A DNA stretch of 57,110 bases from assembly GCA_017522065.1 (NCBI GenBank), contig JAFXAD010000023.1, positions 1 through 57,110 on the forward strand. The letters are read 5' to 3'. The DNA comes from Bacteroidales bacterium (GTDB lineage: Bacteria; Bacteroidota; Bacteroidia; Bacteroidales; P3). This document shows, in pieces, positions 11,970-20,808 of the stretch. Position 1 is the first letter of the stretch. Every line of letters begins with the position of its first letter. A program made the position numbers and the translations under genes. A model generated the notes under the pieces. It was not told where the DNA came from, ran no database searches, and saw nothing but the letters and a program-made list of their open reading frames with translations.

Positions 11970-12053
11970 TATGATTGCATAGTAAAATAGGAAACGTGTA
12001 ATATTAATTCCACCCTATCAAGCAGGAGAACTGACGTCTACGGCATCATCAAA
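11970..12053. other. Non-coding spacer
   Basis: No open frame, promoter match or repeat recognised here. Confidence 0.5.
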
Positions 12054-12115
12054 TCCCCAAATTCATATATAATTTGGGGAATGAAATCCCCAAATTCATA
12101 TTAATTTTGGCGATT
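12054..12115. repeat. Palindrome TCCCCAAATT...AATTTGGGGA plus degraded second copy
   Basis: A perfect 10-bp inverted repeat (arms 12054-12063 and 12071-12080, 7-nt spacer) is followed at 12087-12110 by a second, imperfect copy with the same left arm. It lies between the ParE remnant and the family A1 promoter. It could be an operator, a recombination site or an old hairpin terminator. Confidence 0.6.
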
Positions 12116-12170
12116 ATATCAAAAAAAGTTCGTTTAGTCATTCTCACAAATTATAAAGAATTTTAGCGGT

Positions 12171-12207
12171 GTGTCATGATGTGGCGCACCGCTTTGATAT
12201 TTTTGCA
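12171..12207 (+). promoter_or_regulatory. Shared box + promoter, copy A (family A1)
   Basis: Box GTGTCATGATGTGGC (12171-12185) lies exactly 27 nt (start to start) before the -7 element TATTTTTG (12198-12205). The same box and spacing recur at 16502 and 18129, upstream of the family A2 and family B1 genes. The box covers the -33 region, so it is a candidate operator or specialised -33 element. Confidence 0.75.
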
Positions 12208-12227
12208 GCCGAAAAAATAATCATAAA

Positions 12228-12899
12228 ATGCAAGAACAAAAAGACAATATCAGCCAGCTGCGCAAGCGGCTGCAGGATTGTGAGGATTATATTCTGCGTA
12301 TTGCAAAGCCCTTCAAGGGCTATTGGGACAAGGCGTCGGAGGATGTGATCGATGACCATCTCGGCACCCGGCAGTGGATTCTCAACGAGATGTTTGCGAA
12401 GCATGCCACCAAGGCCGAGGTGCGGCGCTTCGAGGTGGTCAACGAGCGGCTTCTGGCACTGACCAAGCAGTTGAACGAGCGCCACCGCATGTTGCAGGAT
12501 CAGATGGCCGCCATCCACACCCTCGGCGGCGAACCTTTCGAATTGGAGACCACCCTCTTCTATAGTCACAACGACGAAGATCCGCAACTCTTCGCGATGG
12601 AGGAGGATGCTTTCTATGGCTCGCGGTGGAACGAGATGCTGTGGGTCATTTGCCAGAACTCGCGATTGGATGATATCGGCTGGTGCTGTGGTGACCACAT
12701 CTGTGACCTCGACGATGGGCAGACCTGGGCCGAAGGTCCCCTCCGCATCCCCCAGCTCGACCACCTCTGCGTCTGCTACGCCGTCCACGCCCTCTGCACC
12801 CACATGAACTACTCTATCCCCGACCTCCTCCGCATGACCACATACGCCTTCAACTACCAGATAAACACGAATGTCGACCCTGTGCCGCTTGAAGGATAA
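12228..12899 (+). CDS. Family A paralogue 1, unrecognised
   Basis: The 223-residue protein has no signal peptide and I know no family for it. It shares three blocks with the genes at 16566 and 17260: LNEMFAKHATKAEVRRF followed by a coiled-coil-like EVNERLLALTKQL, then EEDAFYGSRWNEMLWVI, and a C-terminal YSIPDLLRM. These suggest a helical N-terminal half and a mixed C-terminal domain with conserved Trp, Glu and Met. It is more GC-rich than its paralogues and stands alone behind the shared box promoter. Function unknown. Confidence 0.75.
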   Translation: MQEQKDNISQLRKRLQDCEDYILRIAKPFKGYWDKASEDVIDDHLGTRQWILNEMFAKHATKAEVRRFEVVNERLLALTKQLNERHRMLQDQMAAIHTLGGEPFELETTLFYSHNDEDPQLFAMEEDAFYGSRWNEMLWVICQNSRLDDIGWCCGDHICDLDDGQTWAEGPLRIPQLDHLCVCYAVHALCTHMNYSIPDLLRMTTYAFNYQINTNVDPVPLEG

Positions 12900-12925
12900 A
12901 ATGTATTGATATCAGAAAATATTCG

Positions 12926-12933
12926 TATCTTTG
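12926..12933 (+). promoter_or_regulatory. -7 element TATCTTTG upstream of the DUF6140-like gene
   Basis: TATCTTTGCA matches TAnnTTTG and lies 118 nt before the DUF6140-like start. A 17-codon open frame sits in the leader. Confidence 0.6.
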
Positions 12934-12954
12934 CACCATAAAACAAAACCACCT

Positions 12955-13008
12955 ATGAAAAGATCTATGTTCACCGATGGATTGAATAATCCGGATTATG
13001 AATTATAG
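12955..13008 (+). CDS. Possible 17-residue leader ORF
   Basis: An ATG at 12955 opens MKRSMFTDGLNNPDYEL, 22 nt after the -7 element. Evidence for translation is only its position just behind the promoter. It may equally be the worn 5' end of a lost gene. Confidence 0.2.
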   Translation: MKRSMFTDGLNNPDYEL

Positions 13009-13043
13009 ATAGAACAATTATTAACCGAATAAATCAACTCATT

Positions 13044-13262
13044 ATGTTGTACAAAGTAACCGTAAAAAACAATTTGAATGCCAATGGCGTTCGTTTAGAA
13101 AAGGGGATGTCTGTTGAAGTGGCATCTCAATCATTTCCCTTGTTAAGTACCCTGCAGGGGAAAGAGGCCGTAAACAATGCCTTCAAAGCCAAATATGGCG
13201 TTGACGTAAGGAAAGCCTGTGCGTTACAATCTATCTATTTGGATGTGGTAAAAATCAACTAA
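13044..13262 (+). CDS. DUF6140-like small protein
   Basis: The 72-residue protein contains LYKVTVKNNLNANGVRLEKGMSVEV-like strands and ends YLDVVKIN. This pattern matches, from memory, the DUF6140 family of small Bacteroidetes proteins frequently found on mobile or accessory DNA. It is beta-rich with one central helix (EAVNNAFKAKYGVD). No function is known. It opens an AT-rich block clearly different in base use from the flanks, which suggests transfer. Confidence 0.6.
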   Translation: MLYKVTVKNNLNANGVRLEKGMSVEVASQSFPLLSTLQGKEAVNNAFKAKYGVDVRKACALQSIYLDVVKIN

Positions 13263-13292
13263 TACACTTAATTATCACAGAGTGAAGAAGAA

Positions 13293-14120
13293 ATGATAAA
13301 AATGAATACAATGAATAAATTGACCGACTCATTGATAAAAGAAGCATTTTCACAAATAGGGGTGAATGAACGGTTTTTCCCAATTTTTGAATCTTTTGCA
13401 AAACAAACATATGAGGAAATTCAACATGACCAACCAGATGAAAAGGATACACCCTATGAAGAAAGTAACGCAGCATGGTGTCTTCAACATTCATGCGAGT
13501 ACATTAAATCTTTTGTGAGAGAAATTGAGAAAGGTCATGGTGAAAACTGGGCAGATGCTTATGCACGAAATAGTTTCGATAAAAACATAAAAGATTTCAC
13601 GACATATAATACTTGGATCTCAATTCAAGACCCTGAAGAGAAAGAGAGGGAGCTTGAAGTTCACGCAAACTCGTTGAGCAAAGACCCTGTTTTCAAGGAG
13701 GTCTATAAAAAAATGGTTGTTGAATTATTTGAGAATTCGGAAGAAAATGCAAGAATCTATACAGAAGCATATCATAGATGTATAAACAATGGGGAAAGCG
13801 AGTCTTTCGCTAAAGCATATACCTATGCTTTAGTTTTTTTAGAATATAATTATCATATCTGCGATATTTATGCACATGCGTATGAGAAGGCGATAATGAA
13901 CGGTATGGACGAACCTGAGGCGACGCATTTTGCTAATTTCTGCATAGACGCTGCGGATCACGGTCTTTTTGCAATGGCACATGATTTCTCGAAGAAATAC
14001 AAGAAAGACTGGCAGCAAGAGCTTTATCTCAAACTAGTATTCTCAGATATCGAAGAGAAAGAAAAAAGGCAACTTTCTGACAAAGAAAAAGAAAGTATCC
14101 AAATTAACTTATTTAAGTAA
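13293..14120 (+). CDS. Unrecognised helical-repeat protein
   Basis: The 275-residue acidic, soluble protein is AT-rich at the DNA level. Residues about 145-235 hold three imperfect helix-pair units built on 'YxxAYxxAxxNGxxEPExxxFA' spacing (IYTEAYHRCINNGESES, DIYAHAYEKAIMNGMDEPEA), a TPR/Sel1-like solenoid by appearance. I see no catalytic motif. It lies 30 bases after the DUF6140-like gene and 57 before a PD-(D/E)XK nuclease gene, so the three look like one transcriptional unit. The start could also be the ATG at 13302 or 13311. Confidence 0.65.
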   Translation: MIKMNTMNKLTDSLIKEAFSQIGVNERFFPIFESFAKQTYEEIQHDQPDEKDTPYEESNAAWCLQHSCEYIKSFVREIEKGHGENWADAYARNSFDKNIKDFTTYNTWISIQDPEEKERELEVHANSLSKDPVFKEVYKKMVVELFENSEENARIYTEAYHRCINNGESESFAKAYTYALVFLEYNYHICDIYAHAYEKAIMNGMDEPEATHFANFCIDAADHGLFAMAHDFSKKYKKDWQQELYLKLVFSDIEEKEKRQLSDKEKESIQINLFK

Positions 14121-14177
14121 TAATGTATTTTGCATTAACATCAATACTGAACAGTCAGACATTGTAAAATAAGTATT

Positions 14178-15395
14178 ATGACATCAGATAGTTATTCTAA
14201 TCAGGATTGGAATCAGATTGTAAATTTCATTACATCAAGTGAAATAATTAATATTTGCAATGATTTCCTCGAAAAAAAAGCCAAAGAAGATCAAATTGGT
14301 TTTAATATTTTTCAAATAATATCTGACAAATACCATCGAGAAGATTTCCATTCCGATTTTCTAGCACTTCTACTTAATCCACAAGAAAAACATGGGGCTG
14401 GTAACTTGTTCTTGAACCTATTTATTTCTATGCTCGAAAAGGCGATGAACAAATATCATGGAAACGATGTTCATTTTGCTCATTATTATCCGAATTCTGA
14501 AGTGTATCGTGAGTATCCGACGAATGATGGGAGAATTGATATTTTAATTTTATCATCCCCAAATAAGAGAGCTATTGTTGTTGAAAATAAGATGAATGGA
14601 GCCCCAGATATGCCCAAGCAGCTCCCTAGATATTATGATTTTTTATCCGAAAAAGGGATAGCCGTAGATGCTATTGTTCATTTATCACTTGATGGAAACA
14701 AAACAATATCACGTGAGGGTTGGTCCAAAGAAGATGAAAAACACGTTAACCAAGTTCTTGTGAGAATTCCTGCATATAATCACACTCACATGATTAATCT
14801 TGTTGATGATTTTTTTTATCAAGCTATTCCATTATCAAATTCTATAGACGTTGTTGCTTCACTTCGCCAGTATTCTCAAATAATAAAACATTTAAATCAA
14901 AATAATATGGATAAATCCTCCATGGAAAAATTCTATCAGGAATTACAAAAAGATAATAATTTAAAAATAGCATTGTCTATTAGAGACATGCTTAATAATT
15001 TTCAAACGTTCTTTGCACAATATATTGCGGATAAATATAACGAAAATGGAAGGTGCCAACCATTTCCTAGAGTGGTTTTTGTACCTTCGTATGGTGGATA
15101 TGCCCTTTTTGAGAGATATGAAATACATGGACTAAAACTAAATATTAATGTAAACGGGAATGTAGATGGATATTGGATAAGACTTGAATGTCAAGAAACG
15201 AGAAGTAGTGATGGTTTTAAGAAGTTTACAGAGGGTTTAGCTGTTTGTAAGAATAATCAAGACAGACTTTATAAATATAAATCCACAGAAGAAAATGATC
15301 CATGGAGTGTATGGTATAAATTTGATTTTGATGAAGAACAAGAATTAATTTATTTCTTGGATAATCTCCTGATGGAGTTAAGAGATTTGTCATGA
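14178..15395 (+). CDS. PD-(D/E)XK superfamily nuclease (PDDEXK_4 type)
   Basis: The 405-residue protein has the hallmark core of PDDEXK_4-like proteins: FHSDFLALLLNPQEKHG near residues 55-75, then GRIDILIL (acidic residue) and AIVVENKMNGAPDM (E-x-K) near 115-145. The C-terminal ~200 residues are a substrate or partner domain without recognised motif. Such proteins are common in defence islands and next to restriction genes, but their targets are mostly unproven. The gene is strongly AT-rich and follows the helical-repeat protein. Confidence 0.8.
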   Translation: MTSDSYSNQDWNQIVNFITSSEIINICNDFLEKKAKEDQIGFNIFQIISDKYHREDFHSDFLALLLNPQEKHGAGNLFLNLFISMLEKAMNKYHGNDVHFAHYYPNSEVYREYPTNDGRIDILILSSPNKRAIVVENKMNGAPDMPKQLPRYYDFLSEKGIAVDAIVHLSLDGNKTISREGWSKEDEKHVNQVLVRIPAYNHTHMINLVDDFFYQAIPLSNSIDVVASLRQYSQIIKHLNQNNMDKSSMEKFYQELQKDNNLKIALSIRDMLNNFQTFFAQYIADKYNENGRCQPFPRVVFVPSYGGYALFERYEIHGLKLNINVNGNVDGYWIRLECQETRSSDGFKKFTEGLAVCKNNQDRLYKYKSTEENDPWSVWYKFDFDEEQELIYFLDNLLMELRDLS

Positions 15396-15685
15396 CATCG
15401 AGAATAACCATTCAAAAAGGGGGTTTTTGAGATTTTTTCCAACCATGCCACCATTTGTAACGTATTAACAAGGCCTTGTTGGAGAATTTCAAGACGAATA
15501 AACAGATTAGGTAAACGACATGAATATGAGGCTTGGAGATACCAATATCTCGGTGGAAAAATAATTGATAAAAAGATACAGAAAAACAGTTACGGAGTTA
15601 TCAACAAAACTAACAATCTTAATAAATATCAATATTTTATAAAAGAAGATATTATTATTTGTTATACTTGTTGAAAGTTGAAAAG
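15396..15685. other. Gene-free spacer with weak hairpins
   Basis: Just after the nuclease stop there is a weak caaaaa-ggggg-tttttg hairpin with a following T-run (15412-15437), a possible terminator. A perfect 14-nt palindrome AACAAGGCCTTGTT lies at 15467-15480. A stop-free frame runs from about 15491 to 15674 without a usable start and has no recognisable homology. Confidence 0.4.
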
Positions 15686-16201
15686 ATGATACAATACATC
15701 GCAGACAAGGAACACTACACAAAAGTCCTCTCGCTGTGTGAGAAGGTCAAGCACGACCTGTGGATTGGTACGGCCGACCTGAAAGACCTCTATGTCAGCA
15801 GCGGCAAGAATGTGGTGCCGTTCCTGTCGGTGCTCGACAAGCTGCTGAAACGTGGTGTCGATGTGCGTCTGCTTCACGCCAAAGAACCGGGCGAAAACTT
15901 CCGCGAGGACTTTGACAAGTATCCTTGATTGTGGAGCAGGTTGGAACGGAGGCTTTGTCCGCGGGTGCATTTCAAGATAATGATTTTCGACTGCGCTACC
16001 GCCTACATCGGTTCCGCCAACCTCACAGGCGCCGGCATAGGCATGAAAGTCGACAACAACCGCAACTTCGAGGCCGGTATCCTCACCGACGACCTCCAAC
16101 TGGTAGATGCCGCAGCCGACCACCTCGACAGCATTTGGCAAGGGATACGATGTACAAAGTGCAAGAGAAAAGCCTTCTGTGGAGACAGAATATCCAAATA
16201 A
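15686..16201 (+). pseudogene. Phospholipase-D-like (HKD) protein interrupted by one in-frame TGA
   Basis: The ATG at 15686 opens MIQYIADKEHYTKVL and runs 80 codons to TGA at 15926-15928. The same frame continues with LWSRLERRLCPRVHFKIM and then the HKD motif HFKIMIFD, GSANLTGAG and a normal stop at 16201. The two halves make one PLD-like domain of about 172 codons with no frameshift, and TGA is one base from TTA (Leu). This is either a nonsense mutation or a sequence error. Only one HKD motif is present, so it may act as a dimer like other single-HKD nucleases. Confidence 0.82.
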
Positions 16202-16219
16202 AAACCACTAATAAGATAA

Positions 16220-16465
16220 ATGGAAGAAGAATCAAAAGTCGATTCTGAGAACATGACAGATTTACAAGCGAATCATAAATCGCAACTGAAACAAGGCCAC
16301 AAGGTACGTATTATTGATGGGGAATTTGTCAATAAGGAAGGCGTACTTATCAGCGACTGCGAGGATGGTACTTATTGTGTCAACATATCAGGGTTTGAAT
16401 TTCCCCTAGTGGTCACCATTGAGAAGAGTGCCTTAATCCCATTCGAAGAAGGCACTAAGCATTAG
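16220..16465 (+). CDS. KOW-domain mini-protein (NusG/UpxY C-terminal-like)
   Basis: The 81-residue protein has a charged lead of ~28 residues. One KOW-type beta-barrel then follows: QGHKVRIIDGEFVNKEGVL, a short hairpin, and VVTIEKSALIPF. This resembles the C-terminal KOW domain of NusG-like antiterminators (UpxY, LoaP) without the NGN domain. KOW modules bind ribosomal protein S10, Rho or RNA. A free-standing one beside unknown paralogues is odd. It could be a remnant of a longer gene. It starts 18 bases after the PLD stop. Confidence 0.6.
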   Translation: MEEESKVDSENMTDLQANHKSQLKQGHKVRIIDGEFVNKEGVLISDCEDGTYCVNISGFEFPLVVTIEKSALIPFEEGTKH

Positions 16466-16501
16466 GGAAGAACAATCGTATAAAAAAATATTTTTGGTGG
16501 T

Positions 16502-16538
16502 GTGTCACGAAATGGCATACCGTTATTGTATTTTTGCA
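16502..16538 (+). promoter_or_regulatory. Shared box + promoter, copy B (family A2/A3)
   Basis: Box GTGTCACGAAATGGC (16502-16516) lies 27 nt, start to start, before TATTTTTG (16529-16536). It also shares the downstream catctcgaaa leader with copy C. This rules out a start codon at 16494, which would place the promoter inside the gene. Confidence 0.75.
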
Positions 16539-16565
16539 TCTCGAAACAAGTTAATAACAAAGGTT

Positions 16566-17249
16566 ATGGAAGTATACAAAAATGAAGATTTCGAGGTGTT
16601 GCGAAAGTATTTGAGAAGGTATGAGTGGGATGTTATCTTTTACTCAAAGCCTTTTGATGACTCGCATTGTCCAGATGCTTGGGGCGGATCAAAAATAGAA
16701 AATAGGCTCAATATCAGAGCTGATATCTTGAACAAAATGTTTGCCATGCATGCCACCGAGGCAGAACTGGAAAGGTTCAAAGAAGTTAATAATAGATTGA
16801 TGCAGTTGACCGAACAGCTTTGTAAATGCCACCGCGATTTACAATACAATGTGAATCTGATACATAGGGCAGATGGCAGCTCTTTTAAAATACGAACAGA
16901 CATTTGTCCTTATTCGGGAATCAACGAGGCAACAGAATTCGAGGAATTGGCAGAAGACACATTTTATGACTCAAAATGGAAAGAAATGATATGGTGCATT
17001 AAGGGGTTAAAGTATGGGAGTGGTCTTTTCTGTGAGGGGAATAATATTCCAAAAATAACTGAAAATGTTGTTGACAGGGAAGCTCCTTTTGATATTCCCA
17101 TTTTGAAAAATATCAATGTATGCTCACTGTTTTATGCATTGTGCACCGAACGGAAATACAGTATTCCAGACGTACTTCGCATCAAAAACTATAAAATAAA
17201 GCAAGAGATTTGTGGTTGGGGTGGTGATGAAATACAGATAACCATTTAA
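16566..17249 (+). CDS. Family A paralogue 2, unrecognised
   Basis: The start at 16566 gives 227 residues. It carries the same blocks as the 12228 gene: LNKMFAMHATEAELERF plus EVNNRLMQLTEQLCKCHRDL, then AEDTFYDSKWKEMIWCI, then YSIPDVLRI. An extra segment, YSKPFDDSHCPDAW near residue 25, is echoed in the broken chimera at 17892. The protein is predicted cytoplasmic with a coiled-coil-like centre. It is 10 bases ahead of paralogue 3, so the two form an operon from the shared box promoter. Confidence 0.75.
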   Translation: MEVYKNEDFEVLRKYLRRYEWDVIFYSKPFDDSHCPDAWGGSKIENRLNIRADILNKMFAMHATEAELERFKEVNNRLMQLTEQLCKCHRDLQYNVNLIHRADGSSFKIRTDICPYSGINEATEFEELAEDTFYDSKWKEMIWCIKGLKYGSGLFCEGNNIPKITENVVDREAPFDIPILKNINVCSLFYALCTERKYSIPDVLRIKNYKIKQEICGWGGDEIQITI

Positions 17250-17259
17250 AGAAATTGTC

Positions 17260-17880
17260 ATGAAAAAAGATGCAAAAAAAGAGTTTAATGAGTTAAGAAA
17301 ACAACTGAAAAAGGTTGAACAGAATATCCTACTTGACAACAAGGAATATGAAGATTTGGTTTTCGGATTACAGGAGCGTCTTCTATTATTGAACCAGATG
17401 TTTTCTATACATGCCACTGAAAACGAGATTCGACGATTGACAGAAGTCAATGATAAACTCCACCAATTGGAAAAAGATTATCTTGACTGGGATAAACATA
17501 TTCACGCAAGTTTCAAAACAATAAAAGATATAGAAGGAGAACAATTCCTTATTGAAACAGAACTCATGCCAAATTTGAAACCACCACTCAATTGCAAATT
17601 ACATATCATGGAAGAAGATTTCGACTATGGTTCTCGATGGCAAGAGATGATAGGTGTTATTGGAAGAGAATGTACTGGGAAAAATCTCCCTATTATTTCT
17701 GCACAAAATAAAATCAGTATGAATATCGGTGCATTGAAATATATACAACAGATGGATGATTTGTGCGTTTCCGAATTGTTTTGGCAGCTGACAGATAAGT
17801 TTTATCTCAGTGTTCCTGACATATTAAAAATACAGTATTATCATTACCGCTATAGTCGATATTGGAAATCTGCAGAGTGA
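17260..17880 (+). CDS. Family A paralogue 3, unrecognised
   Basis: The 206-residue protein starts with a charged helix (KKEFNELRKQLKKVEQNIL). It repeats the family A blocks in diverged form: LNQMFSIHATENEIRRL, EVNDKLHQLEKDY, EEDFDYGSRWQEMIGVI and LSVPDILKI. The conserved SRW.EMI and P-D-[LVI]-L-[RK] positions across all three copies mark likely functional residues. AT-rich. Placed 10 bases after paralogue 2 and just before the chimeric pseudogene. Confidence 0.75.
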   Translation: MKKDAKKEFNELRKQLKKVEQNILLDNKEYEDLVFGLQERLLLLNQMFSIHATENEIRRLTEVNDKLHQLEKDYLDWDKHIHASFKTIKDIEGEQFLIETELMPNLKPPLNCKLHIMEEDFDYGSRWQEMIGVIGRECTGKNLPIISAQNKISMNIGALKYIQQMDDLCVSELFWQLTDKFYLSVPDILKIQYYHYRYSRYWKSAE

Positions 17881-17891
17881 GCTTTTGTGAT

Positions 17892-18092
17892 ATGAAACTA
17901 TTTGTAGATTATGAGTTGTCGGAAACGGGGCACAATATGGTTGTAATAACGTCATAATATCTTGACTGCCTTGTGGATGCTGCCACAGTTTTCGAGAAGA
18001 TCAATTATAGTACACATGCTTTTGATGAAAAGGAATGTCCATGCGCAACAGAACCAATAGATTTATTATGCGGTGATAGTCAATATGATTGA
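17892..18092 (+). pseudogene. Family B pseudogene with a family A-like tail
   Basis: The ATG at 17892 opens MKLFVDYELSETGHNMVVITS, then TAA at 17955-17957. The frame goes on as YLDCLVDAATVFEKINYST. This aligns with the 18193 gene (MKLYIDYEVYG, TPEYIDALIEKASGIEKIDYST), the stop replacing its Glu codon (GAA to TAA). After YST the sequence changes to HAFDEKECPCA, which resembles family A2's KPFDDSHCPDA. The frame closes at 18090. So this is a B-headed, A-tailed chimera killed by one nonsense codon. Confidence 0.75.
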
Positions 18093-18128
18093 AACAATCA
18101 TACACTCCAGTAAAGAAAGATAATATAT

Positions 18129-18165
18129 GTGTCATGATATGGCATATTGTTGCTGTGTTTTTGCA
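18129..18165 (+). promoter_or_regulatory. Shared box + promoter, copy C (family B1)
   Basis: Box GTGTCATGATATGGC (18129-18143) lies 27 nt, start to start, before TGTTTTTG (18156-18163), followed by the same catctcgaaa leader as copy B. It drives family B1, B2 and possibly the RhuM-Fic and WYL genes. Confidence 0.75.
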
Positions 18166-18192
18166 TCTCGAAATAAAATAATTTATATTGCT

Positions 18193-18552
18193 ATGAAACT
18201 ATACATTGATTATGAAGTCTATGGTAAAAATGGGGAGCTGTTGAAACCAGTGGAGATTACTCCCGAATACATTGATGCACTTATTGAGAAGGCCTCGGGG
18301 ATTGAAAAGATTGATTATAGCACGCAGGTGATAGCCGAAATTACAGTCAACCGGCCAGACAAGAAGATTGGCAGCGTTCAGCAGATGATGGACGAGTATG
18401 GTGTATCGCGACAACAGGCGGAATTCGCACTGAACATACCTATGAAGTATGTTCCGCTTTTCTTCGACGAAGAAGAATACCCCAAACAGATAGAACGTAT
18501 GACTATCATGCGACGTATACTTCAAGAGATACAAGATATTTTAAATAATTGA
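18193..18552 (+). CDS. Family B paralogue 1, unrecognised
   Basis: The start at 18193 gives 119 residues; an upstream ATG at 18127 precedes the promoter and is rejected. The protein contains EITPEYIDALIEKASGIEKID, a central helix-turn-helix-like stretch (SVQQMMDEYGVSRQQAEFAL), and VPLFFDEEEYPKQIERM. The central part may be DNA-binding or a protein-interaction helix pair; that is inference. It is paired with paralogue 2 only 4 bases downstream. Confidence 0.7.
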   Translation: MKLYIDYEVYGKNGELLKPVEITPEYIDALIEKASGIEKIDYSTQVIAEITVNRPDKKIGSVQQMMDEYGVSRQQAEFALNIPMKYVPLFFDEEEYPKQIERMTIMRRILQEIQDILNN

Positions 18553-18556
18553 TGAT

Positions 18557-18898
18557 ATGGAACTTTACGGAAAACCTATTATTACAACGTCGGATGACGG
18601 CACCATCAACATAAAGGTGCTGCCTATTACCCCGGAGTATATAGATACACGTCTGGCAGAGCTGGCTGTTTTTGGACAGATAAACTACAATATTGAAGAG
18701 GTGGTCGCAGCCGTACAAAATGCCGCTTCTCTCAAGCAAGCGGCAAAAAGACTAAAGACAACACTCGGCATCGGGCCCGCAGAAACAGACTTCCTTTTGG
18801 ATTTAACCATCGAAGAGATGTCATACTATTTCGATCGGGACAACTGCGAGAAAGAGATTGTAAAATGGAACAATCTAAAGGTGCTGCTTGTGCAATAA
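18557..18898 (+). CDS. Family B paralogue 2, unrecognised
   Basis: The 113-residue protein is homologous to the gene before it: PITPEYIDTRLAELAVFGQIN, SLKQAAKRLKTTLGIGPAETDFLL and MSYYFDRDNCEKEIVKWN line up with B1 in the same order. Two adjacent diverged copies suggest a heterodimer or sub-functional pair. It is 27 bases ahead of the RhuM-Fic gene. No catalytic residues recognised. Confidence 0.7.
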   Translation: MELYGKPIITTSDDGTINIKVLPITPEYIDTRLAELAVFGQINYNIEEVVAAVQNAASLKQAAKRLKTTLGIGPAETDFLLDLTIEEMSYYFDRDNCEKEIVKWNNLKVLLVQ

Positions 18899-18925: not shown

Positions 18926-19921
18926 ATGGAGAATATCAACGACAAGATAATCATCTATCAGACCGACGACGGGCAAACTGCTATCGATGTGCGGTTGGAG
19001 AACGAAACCGTGTGGCTGACACAGGCACAGATGGCGTTGCTCTTTGAGAAAACGCCGCAGAATATAACTATGCATATACGAAATGCTTATAGCGAGGGTG
19101 AATTGGACGAACGTGCAACTTGTAAGGAATTCTTACAAGTTCGAAGGGAAGGTGTAAGAGAAATAAAGCGTATGCAAAAGTTTTATGACCTTGATGTCAT
19201 TATCTCTGTTGGCTATCGCGTGAAGAGTCAGCGAGGTACTGCATTCCGTATCTGGGCAAGAAATGTATTGAAGGACTATCTCGTCAAGGGCTATGCTGTG
19301 AACGAGCGCATCCACAAGGAGCAGATTGGCGAGCTGCGGCAGCTGGTGGGCATGCTCGGACGGACCATACAAAACCAGCCGCTGCTTTCGACCGACGAGA
19401 CCAATGCACTCTTCGACGTGGTGACCGACTACACCTACGCCCTCGACACCCTCGACAGTTACGACTACCAGCGGCTCACCGTCAGCGACACCACCAGCGA
19501 GGCTCCTTTCCGTGCCACCTACGACAACGCCATGCAGGCCATCCACTCGTTGAAGGAACGTTTCGGCGAGAGCACCCTCTTCGGCAACGAGAAGGACGAG
19601 TCGTTCAAGAGCTCCATCGGGCAGATATACCAGACCTTCGACGGTGTGGAGCTCTACCCCAGCACCGAAGAGAAGGCCGCCATGCTGCTCTATCTCGTCA
19701 CCAAGAACCATTCGTTCAGCGACGGCAACAAACGCATCGCCGCCACGCTGTTCTTGTGGTTTCTGAACAACAACCGCATCCTCTACCGCGAGGACGGCAG
19801 CAAGCGCATCGCCGACAACACCCTCGTGGCCCTCACGCTTATGATTGCCGAGAGCCGCCCTGAGGAGAAGGATGTGATGGTGAAGGTGGTGGTGAACCTT
19901 ATCAACAAGAACAACCTATGA
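18926..19921 (+). CDS. rhuM: RhuM-family protein with C-terminal Fic domain
   Basis: The 331-residue protein opens with the RhuM domain (TVWLTQAQMALLFEKTPQNI; later VISVGYRVKSQRGTAFRIWA). The C-terminal half is a Fic/DOC fold with active site HSFSDGNKRIAATLF near residue 260, matching HxFx[D/E]GNxR. Fic enzymes transfer AMP or other nucleotide moieties to proteins. RhuM-Fic genes are typical of pathogenicity and defence islands, but their targets are unknown. The catalytic His, Asp, Asn and Arg are all present. It overlaps the WYL gene by 4 bases (ATGA). Confidence 0.88.
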   Translation: MENINDKIIIYQTDDGQTAIDVRLENETVWLTQAQMALLFEKTPQNITMHIRNAYSEGELDERATCKEFLQVRREGVREIKRMQKFYDLDVIISVGYRVKSQRGTAFRIWARNVLKDYLVKGYAVNERIHKEQIGELRQLVGMLGRTIQNQPLLSTDETNALFDVVTDYTYALDTLDSYDYQRLTVSDTTSEAPFRATYDNAMQAIHSLKERFGESTLFGNEKDESFKSSIGQIYQTFDGVELYPSTEEKAAMLLYLVTKNHSFSDGNKRIAATLFLWFLNNNRILYREDGSKRIADNTLVALTLMIAESRPEEKDVMVKVVVNLINKNNL

Positions 19922-20808
19922 ACGTACTGAAGAAATACACTTGGCTGGTGGGAACGCTGATGCGAGCGGGGAGCAAGGGGCTGACGCTGGAACAGATTGC
20001 AGACCGTTGGAACGCCACGGATGAACTGCACGAAGAGGGCGCCTTCGCACGGCGCAGTTTCCACCGCCACCGCAGCGAGATTCTCGACCTCTTCGGCATC
20101 GAGGTTGAGTGTTACATGGACGGTGGTCAGTATCGCTACCGTCTGGTCGACGACGGAGGCAGGGAGTACTTCCGCCAGTGGATGATGGATTCCATAGCGG
20201 TGCATCATGTCGTGGCCGACAGCCGCGAGGCGGCACAGTATATCATGGTGGAAACCACGGACAGCCGAATGCTTCCGGCGCTCTTGGAAGCGTTGAAAGA
20301 GCAGCGCACGCTGAAATTCACGTATGCACCCTATTGGAGTGAAGCACCCTACGACTACAGTGGCGTGCAGCCCTATGCCCTCAAGATGTTCGAACGGCGG
20401 TGGTACCTCATCGCCCGCCGCGACGGCGACTACCGTATTTTCGCCCTCGACCGCATGTCGAAGGTGGAGCAGCAGGCGGAAACCTACAAGCGCGACCCGA
20501 AGTTCGACCTGAAGGAGATGTTCGAGGGTGCCTACGGCATCATTGTGGACGATACACCTACGGAGTCCATCCGTCTGAAAGTGGACGCCTACCAAGCCAA
20601 CTACCTGCGCTCGCTGCCCTTGCACAGCAGCCAGCACGAACTGAAGCGCACCGAAGAGTATTCCATTTTCTCTCTGCGTGTGCGTCCCACCTACGATTTC
20701 AAACAGAAACTCCTTTCCCTCGGCAGCACCGTCGAAGTGCTCCAACCCGAAAGTCTCCGTGCCGACATGCGTGGCGAGATACAGGAGATGGTGAAAAAAT
20801 ATCGCTAA
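19918..20808 (+). CDS. WYL-domain transcriptional regulator
   Basis: The 296-residue protein has an N-terminal winged-helix half (GLTLEQIADRW, ARRSFHRHRSEILDLFG) and a WYL ligand-sensing domain around residues 115-210 (LKFTYAPYWSE, PYALKMFERRWYLIAR, RIFALDRM). WYL proteins are common regulators in phage-defence islands, often silencing neighbouring genes until a nucleic-acid or nucleotide ligand appears. It is translationally coupled to RhuM-Fic by an ATGA overlap. It is the best local candidate to bind the three shared boxes; this is inference. Confidence 0.87.
   Translation: MNVLKKYTWLVGTLMRAGSKGLTLEQIADRWNATDELHEEGAFARRSFHRHRSEILDLFGIEVECYMDGGQYRYRLVDDGGREYFRQWMMDSIAVHHVVADSREAAQYIMVETTDSRMLPALLEALKEQRTLKFTYAPYWSEAPYDYSGVQPYALKMFERRWYLIARRDGDYRIFALDRMSKVEQQAETYKRDPKFDLKEMFEGAYGIIVDDTPTESIRLKVDAYQANYLRSLPLHSSQHELKRTEEYSIFSLRVRPTYDFKQKLLSLGSTVEVLQPESLRADMRGEIQEMVKKYR

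Follow-up and report, generated by a model that had tools for sequence, protein, structure and literature searches.

A dyad at the -33 position of promoters in a defence-like Bacteroidales island: a candidate operator of the island's own WYL regulator

Results

Three island promoters share an inverted repeat

The window analysed here is the whole 57,110-nucleotide (nt) stretch of contig JAFXAD010000023.1 from a Bacteroidales bacterium, and our subject is a repeat shared by three promoters of an island that encodes two protein families, A and B, a nuclease, a RhuM-Fic protein and a WYL-domain regulator (Table 1). A 15-nt box, GTGTCATGATATGGC, stands before A1 (position 12171, one mismatch), before A2/A3 (16502, two mismatches) and before the B operon (18129, no mismatch). 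A mismatch search bore out these positions, which had been proposed from the letters alone, as well as the distance of 27 nt from the start of each box to the start of its -7 element (12198, 16529 and 18156); the third -7 element, TGTTTTTG, departs from strict TAnnTTTG. By itself the 15-mer was not significant, with four matches at up to three mismatches against 1.58 expected, a number reached by 6 of 100 shuffles. The original prediction had seen the box and the WYL gene, and had missed both the inverted repeat and the WYL protein as the likely regulator. We found that the box is a portion of an inverted repeat with the consensus GGTGTGTCA-N5-TGGCACACC, and that this dyad occupies the expected -33 position at a constant distance to a TAnnTTTG-type -7 element. 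The three window promoters are similar across ~45 nt. 5′ of the A1 operator, window positions 12050–12115 hold repeated CCCCAAATTCATAT plus its inverted form.

The genome of this bacterium is a draft of 2.62 Mb in 62 contigs (90.8% complete). Throughout this genome, TGNCANNANNTGNC-N11-GTATTTTTGC with up to two mismatches matched four times, namely at the three island promoters and once on contig C42, where the letters form no dyad. The box standing equally often before unrelated housekeeping genes would have spoken against the original prediction; in the sequence inspected the outcome favoured that prediction, as no housekeeping gene of the genome carries the promoter of box plus -7 element. 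The idea that the box marks a genome-wide regulon of this bacterium found no support, the dyad promoter matches being the three island promoters only. The single-mismatch 15-mers inspected, all but three on contigs C36 and C53, lack a -7 element. Single-mismatch copies of the box, GTGTCATGATGTTGC, occur at G000:C14:103 and 342 and at G000:C36:9186 and 9665 (G000 being this genome); the two on C14 sit in a local repeat and have no -7 element.

The dyad is symmetric and fixed in place in related loci

A matrix was trained on 79 unique promoters selected from related loci with a pattern that includes the -7 element. Their consensus reads GGTG-TGTCAYGATRTGGCACACC, spacer, TATTTTTGCA, and conserved bases extend beyond the -7 element. 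In the fetched loci 113 sites (107 unique) scored at least 22, compared with no score of 12 or more in a control with one first-order shuffle per stretch (79 stretches). Arm-pair complementarity in the 107 unique sites was 73.5% at one centre, versus 11.5–39% at every other centre tested. In the non-redundant set of 61 sites, 47 had a complementary pair 0/16 (G-C or A-T) against 31.3 expected, which none of 2000 permutations matched; chance was likewise exceeded by pairs -2/18 and -3/19 (14 and 15 of 2000 permutations) and barely by pair -1/17 (79 of 2000). In its letters, the dyad thus resembles the imperfect site of a symmetric protein dimer.

A scan with the dyad part only gave 118 unique hits with flanking sequence, in 93 of which TANNTTTGC began exactly 26 nt from the start of TGTCA. 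It stood elsewhere in one and was missing from 24, although 14 of these 24 showed a variant -7 element at the same place when inspected by eye. Among 190 genomes of the bacterial family, the pattern with the right spacing matched in 103 (about 240 sites versus 14 in the reversed control); with one nucleotide added to the spacer, 26 genomes matched (30 sites versus 17 in the reversed control). TTTG at 22–25 nt before the TA of the -7 element was present in 15% of 123 other promoters versus 0 of 85 dyad promoters.

Beyond these loci the signal faded. A dyad at the same offset before other -7 elements was no more frequent than at other offsets in loci of WYL paralogues (1 of 319, L211), in Bacteroides-type loci (1 of 160, L247) or in order-level loci (1 of 145, L278). 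Across the order as a whole the pattern occurred in 102 of 295 genomes; at about threefold the reversed control, this is a far weaker signal than the family gave. Genome G308, which belongs to a different family of this order, holds two back-to-back pairs of matches with TGACA/TGTCA arms (C31:19110–19198 and C52:10877–10965) that may represent a diverged form of this design.

The sites accompany orthologues of one WYL gene

The protein encoded at 19918–20808 matches the WYL and WCX domain families PF13280 (E = 6.4e-15) and PF25583 (E = 1e-13), both above cut-off, and its gene is the last of the B operon, which runs through RhuM-Fic into the WYL regulator as had been predicted. Against PDB sequences it gave ten matches at E ≤ 1, the best at 2e-5, with DriD (8tp8) at 2.3e-4 and PafBC (6sj9) at 0.0086; none of these ten is named BrxR or CapW. 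As genes were called by longest open reading frame (ORF), the WYL gene was hidden by an antisense ORF in the window and in L051, L074, L179, L194 and L197, and its position in these six loci was taken from the homologue search.

WYL homologues (E ≤ 1e-40) were present in 78 of the 190 family genomes, and 44 loci in 43 genomes reached at least 53% identity, which we took as orthologous. A site with a matrix score of at least 22 was found in the fetched stretch of 39 of these 44 loci. In four of the five misses (L179, L088, L189 and L196) the contig ends within ~1.3 kb upstream of the WYL gene; in the fifth, L180, the WYL gene follows an AAA ATPase gene and no site was seen. Of the 23 other members of the WYL cluster, five lie in site-bearing loci: two (L064 and L203) have an orthologue in the same locus, two (L204 and L212) have none, and the membership of L067 in the cluster is doubtful. 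The dyad is found directly 5′ of a WYL gene in L064 and L195, and also before the remote homologue of L204. In genomes G000–G102, 59 of the 73 listed sites with at most one mismatch had a WYL homologue no more than 20 kb away. Genomes with at least two matches (55) and genomes with an orthologue (43) overlapped in 34 cases versus 12.4 expected, in counts that rest on two-mismatch matches and so include chance ones.

The dyad promoter precedes many kinds of genes

Cargo was assigned as the nearest called ORF 25–400 nt downstream of each of the 107 unique sites and named from one representative per cluster. This ORF belonged to family A at 15 sites, to B at nine and to B/A at one; 68 sites preceded other ORFs and 14 no called ORF. 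The claim that the box is specific to A and B therefore failed, since only 25 of 107 unique sites precede them: these families are two among a larger number of cargo types. The 68 other sites span 27 ORF clusters, 18 with at least two members and nine single ORFs, some of these short and perhaps not genes. The commonest were a 187-amino-acid (aa) protein without a family match (14 sites), an AAA ATPase of ~557 aa (12) and DnaQ-like exonucleases (5). GmrSD, FtsK/HerA-like, DUF932, DUF6140, DUF1835/DUF3658 and PD-(D/E)XK proteins were likewise encoded downstream of the promoter; Nmad3 and DnaA-type proteins were island neighbours, with a DnaA-type ATPase in L199. In L181, L183, L186, L188 and L202, the 187-aa protein and one or more small zinc-ribbon proteins take the place of B before the WYL gene.

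Several of these genes match known or candidate defence families: PDC-S23/S05, PDC-S26, PDC-S48 (the exonucleases), an IetA/TRIP13-like ATPase (the ~557-aa cargo) and GmrSD, the PDC families being candidates rather than proven defence systems. The representatives A1, B1 and the 187-aa protein had no match in PADLOC, and the last had none in Pfam or PHROGs either. Judged by its cargo the island appears defence-like, and an anti-phage function would fit. Co-regulation of A and B inside such an island, as first suggested, stands in so far as both carry the shared promoter box; the limitation of that box to two families does not.

Table 1. Promoter features and genes of the island, in window coordinates
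Feature	Position	Strand	Remarks
Operator of A1, inverted repeat AGCGGTGTGTCA / TGGCGCACCGCT	12165–12193	+	5-nt gap; 83% complementary; contains box 12171–12185
-7 element of A1, TATTTTTG	12198–12205	+	
A1, 223 aa, family A	12228–12899	+	No family above cut-off
DUF6140 protein, 72 aa	13044–13262	+	E = 3.2e-21
ORF of 275 aa	13293–14120	+	No assigned family
PDDEXK_4 nuclease	14178–15395	+	PADLOC candidate PDC-S26
PLD-like gene split into two frames	15686–16201	+	171-aa L199 relative matches PLDc_2
Operator of A2/A3, GGTGTGTCA-CGAAA-TGGCATACC	16499–16521	+	
-7 element of A2/A3, TATTTTTG	16529–16536	+	
A2, 227 aa, family A	16566–17249	+	
A3, 206 aa, family A	17260–17880	+	
B-gene relic	17892–18020	+	Inner stop
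Operator of B operon, ATGTGTCA-TGATA-TGGCATAT	18127–18147	+	Imperfect
-7 element of B operon, TGTTTTTG	18156–18163	+	
B1, 119 aa, family B	18193–18552	+	
B2, 113 aa, family B	18557–18898	+	
RhuM-Fic, Fic motif HSFSDGNKR	18926–19921	+	PADLOC candidate PDC-S23/PDC-S05
WYL regulator (WYL + WCX)	19918–20808	+	Proposed regulator of the three promoters; 4-nt overlap with RhuM-Fic stop codon

Families A and B show hints of possible ties to replication proteins

The sizes originally given for the A and B proteins held up, as did their description as unrecognised: the five proteins had no Pfam or NCBIfam match above cut-off, A1 and B1 none in PADLOC, and A1, A2, B1 and B2 none in PHROGs. A chimeric pseudogene had also been proposed. 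The relic before the B promoter consists of a B-like fragment interrupted by an internal stop codon, and we saw no chimera because the family A search found no match there. Relics with a single inner TAA in the same profile stretch occur in three genomes (the window, G095:C21:16466–16597 and G099:C8:45334–45462), and the relic therefore looks inherited. Just 5′ of the A2 promoter lies a gene for an 81-aa stand-alone KOW-type protein (16220–16465), with a below-cut-off match to the tail of the UpxY antiterminator (E = 3.4e-6) and a relative at the same place in L051.

Of the 190 family genomes, 25 carried family A, 23 carried family B and 16 carried both, where 3.0 were expected. Searches of plasmids with A and of viral contigs with B1 gave no match; A matched one viral contig of 9 kb (L256). 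Named records held family A in 37 loci, many of them from ruminant metagenome-assembled genomes (MAGs) of uncultured Bacteroidales, and remote relatives occur in Bacteroides caecigallinarum, Phocaeicola vulgatus ATCC 8482, Parabacteroides, Butyricimonas, Paraprevotella and Muribaculum. In L248, L249 (Bacteroides caecigallinarum ET21) and L255, A has a WYL gene of 57% identity nearby, and the A promoters, inspected by eye, carry TGGCATA at the same distance to TATTTTTG. In L247 a dyad of another sequence is centred 19 nt before the -7 element 5′ of A, a single case at chance level, and the stretch examined in P. vulgatus held neither a site nor a WYL gene.

In 8 of the 37 loci (L232, L233, L234, L235, L238, L241, L243 and L244) A forms the tail of a protein of ~450 aa. 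The seven such fusions that were scanned (all but L234) matched DnaB_C at E values from 4e-35 to 2e-42, and a P-loop is present in the N-termini shown. Low-scoring sites (16–27) lie 107–109 nt before the start codon in seven of the eight, L235 being the exception. The likeness of A to DnaB-type helicases is that of the fused ATPase in one clade, whereas A1–A3 showed no RecA-fold ATPase domain in Pfam, and family A had no match in PDB (best E = 0.33). The family B profile matched gyrase A (E = 0.0015) and topoisomerase IV subunit A (from 0.0094) in PDB. Against PF00521, 4 of 17 B proteins gave E ≤ 1, the best at 1.4e-4 and below the Pfam cut-off. B aligned onto residues 389–431 of the bacterium's own GyrA with an hhalign probability of 69%, versus 0.2% for its own ParC. 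The likeness of B to GyrA extends over about 43–60 residues, and we take both the A–DnaB_C fusion and the GyrA likeness as hints.

Discussion

The evidence leans, if modestly, towards the boxes being operators of the island's own WYL regulator, with the WYL protein acting as an activator. A WYL homodimer would recognise GGTGTGTCA-N5-TGGCACACC. The centre of this dyad lies 19 nt before the -7 element, in the region that sigma would normally contact as the -33 TTTG. Activation is the most likely sign because the -33 element appears to be missing and the spacing hardly varies. In the manner of DriD and PafBC, the WYL protein might assist initiation by the housekeeping RNA polymerase where a promoter lacks a proper -33 element, its WYL domain possibly binding single-stranded DNA (ssDNA) from phage or plasmid replication or from DNA damage. 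It would then switch on its own operon, B1-B2-RhuM/Fic-WYL, together with the A cassettes, and the operator would serve as a tag that places unrelated defence-like cassettes under one regulator.

Two known WYL activators offer a precedent, as far as the accounts we cite describe them. DriD of Caulobacter activates a DNA-damage response from a pseudo-palindrome of ~20 bp, ATACGAC-N7-GTCGTAT, that lies over poor -35 elements; its targets include bapE, recJ, dnaG and didA (PMC12340889). Going by that account, a WYL protein, a dyad over the -35/-33 region, a constant distance to the -10/-7 element and several promoters are common to both cases, and the position and spacing seen here appear to match DriD best. 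The DriD site sequence and targets differ from those of our island, where mixed defence-like cassettes surround the regulator gene. Mycobacterial PafBC is described as working by sigma adaptation, replacing -35 recognition by the housekeeping sigma factor upon an ssDNA trigger (PMC11804915). A WYL regulator that acts at a motif of set position and takes over the role of the -35 element is what we propose here as well, but the PafBC described is a heterodimer on a -26 motif, unlike the symmetric dyad and single WYL gene here.

Several observations weigh against an activating WYL dimer at these sites. On the side of the regulator, the sites in L204 and L212 adjoin WYL genes of less than 40% identity, 14 of the 73 sites in G000–G102 have no WYL homologue within 20 kb, 21 of the 55 multi-match genomes lack an orthologue, 9 of the 43 orthologue genomes have fewer than two matches, and G096 has an intact A gene with its promoter and no WYL orthologue. 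Specific co-variation of the WYL helix-turn-helix with the operator was not found in 38 islands: the correlation with the dyad (0.33) was about that with the spacer (0.34), was higher with the DNA downstream (0.50) and was 0.12 with the bases upstream, and the partial correlation given the C-terminal part was 0.05, a value reached by 552 of 2000 permutations. The orthologues shown vary hardly at all in R[ST]FHRHR or in the operator core, which left little to measure, but the test lends the model no support. On the side of the site, pair 1/15 showed no excess of complementarity (866 of 2000 permutations) and in most sites the bases of the inner pair 3/13 do not match, with 13 of 61 complementary versus 15.0 expected. 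The spacing result is not fully independent, because the matrix sites were picked with the -7 element, and promoters copied from each other would retain their spacing regardless. The absence of TTTG at 22–25 nt says little, because ordinary promoters show it there in 15% only. TTTG 18 nt before TA occurs in 18 of 85 dyad promoters (21%), built from the dyad's own bases, and some dyad promoters may keep a short-spaced -33 element.

A serious competitor, which we hold possible though not probable, is that the WYL dimer represses in the manner of BrxR and CapW, sitting over the -33 region and shutting off a costly island until an infecting phage relieves the block. BrxR of BREX and CapW of CBASS are WYL repressors that act from palindromes (PMC9122601, PMC9122588) and silence defence operons from inverted repeats; the BrxR arms, 11 bp long and 5 bp apart in the description given, have the geometry found here. 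The likeness extends to the setting, a WYL gene within a defence-like locus that has a palindromic operator, and the promoter of the WYL gene's own operon contains such an operator, as expected of an autorepressor. The dyad also overlaps the site at which sigma region 4 would be expected. However, in these accounts the CapW palindromes, one site per CBASS promoter, overlap the -10 element, and the BrxR repeats, two R-boxes per island, lie between promoter and gene, both types sitting at or downstream of -10, whereas here one operator type holds one fixed place in ~90 promoters of many different cassettes. The lack of TTTG at 22–25 nt also looks more DriD-like, although the sign stays undecided by these points. 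Decay of A genes behind intact promoters was uninformative on the sign, as it was seen both with a WYL orthologue (G088) and without one (G020, G091).

It is unlikely that another factor, a chromosomal regulator or a different sigma factor, reads the dyad while the WYL gene is a frequent passenger. The missing specific co-variation of protein and operator and the sites without a WYL orthologue would fit this. Yet the WYL gene is the most constant neighbour of the sites, RhuM/Fic, the next most constant, is absent from, for example, L181, L182, L183, L188 and L199, and the -7 element is the usual one. That the repeat is simply a mobile promoter copied along with genes, devoid of any regulatory role, seems very improbable: the ~45-nt similarity of the window promoters and the conserved bases past the -7 element would suit it, but the outer arm pairs change together and the remote A genes of other genera (L248, L249 and L255) retain TGGCATA at the same distance to the -7 element.

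If the WYL protein does activate from the dyad, a broader design can be imagined, which we offer tentatively and regard as rather doubtful: a plug-in regulon, in which one WYL activator sensing a replication or damage signal would control any cassette tagged at -33, so that unrelated defence genes could be exchanged and yet remain jointly controlled. Some of the cargo would derive from replication proteins or target them, as suggested by the A–DnaB_C fusions, the GyrA-like B proteins, the DnaA-type ATPase in L199 and the DnaQ-like exonucleases; mimicking or capturing the replication machinery would then be a theme of the system.

A survey notes that WYL domains occur next to defence genes in MAGs (PMC10924106). 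Among the titles and abstract openings listed from the open-licence literature (20 of 2,006 records for WYL, BrxR, CapW and defence) there was no paper on such a WYL regulon, which is no proof of novelty. The role known for WYL regulators is the control of individual defence systems or of DNA-damage genes; in our case a single type of operator, at one fixed promoter position, marks many different cassettes. If the proposal is true, the tag would provide a sequence handle for defence genes as yet unrecognised, namely whatever follows it, and the joint switching-on of multi-system islands would become directly testable. Two protein families without a curated name, A and B, hint at a link to replication proteins. 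In the gut bacteria related to rumen species in which the tag is found, a WYL protein may switch a mixed defence island on or off as a unit.

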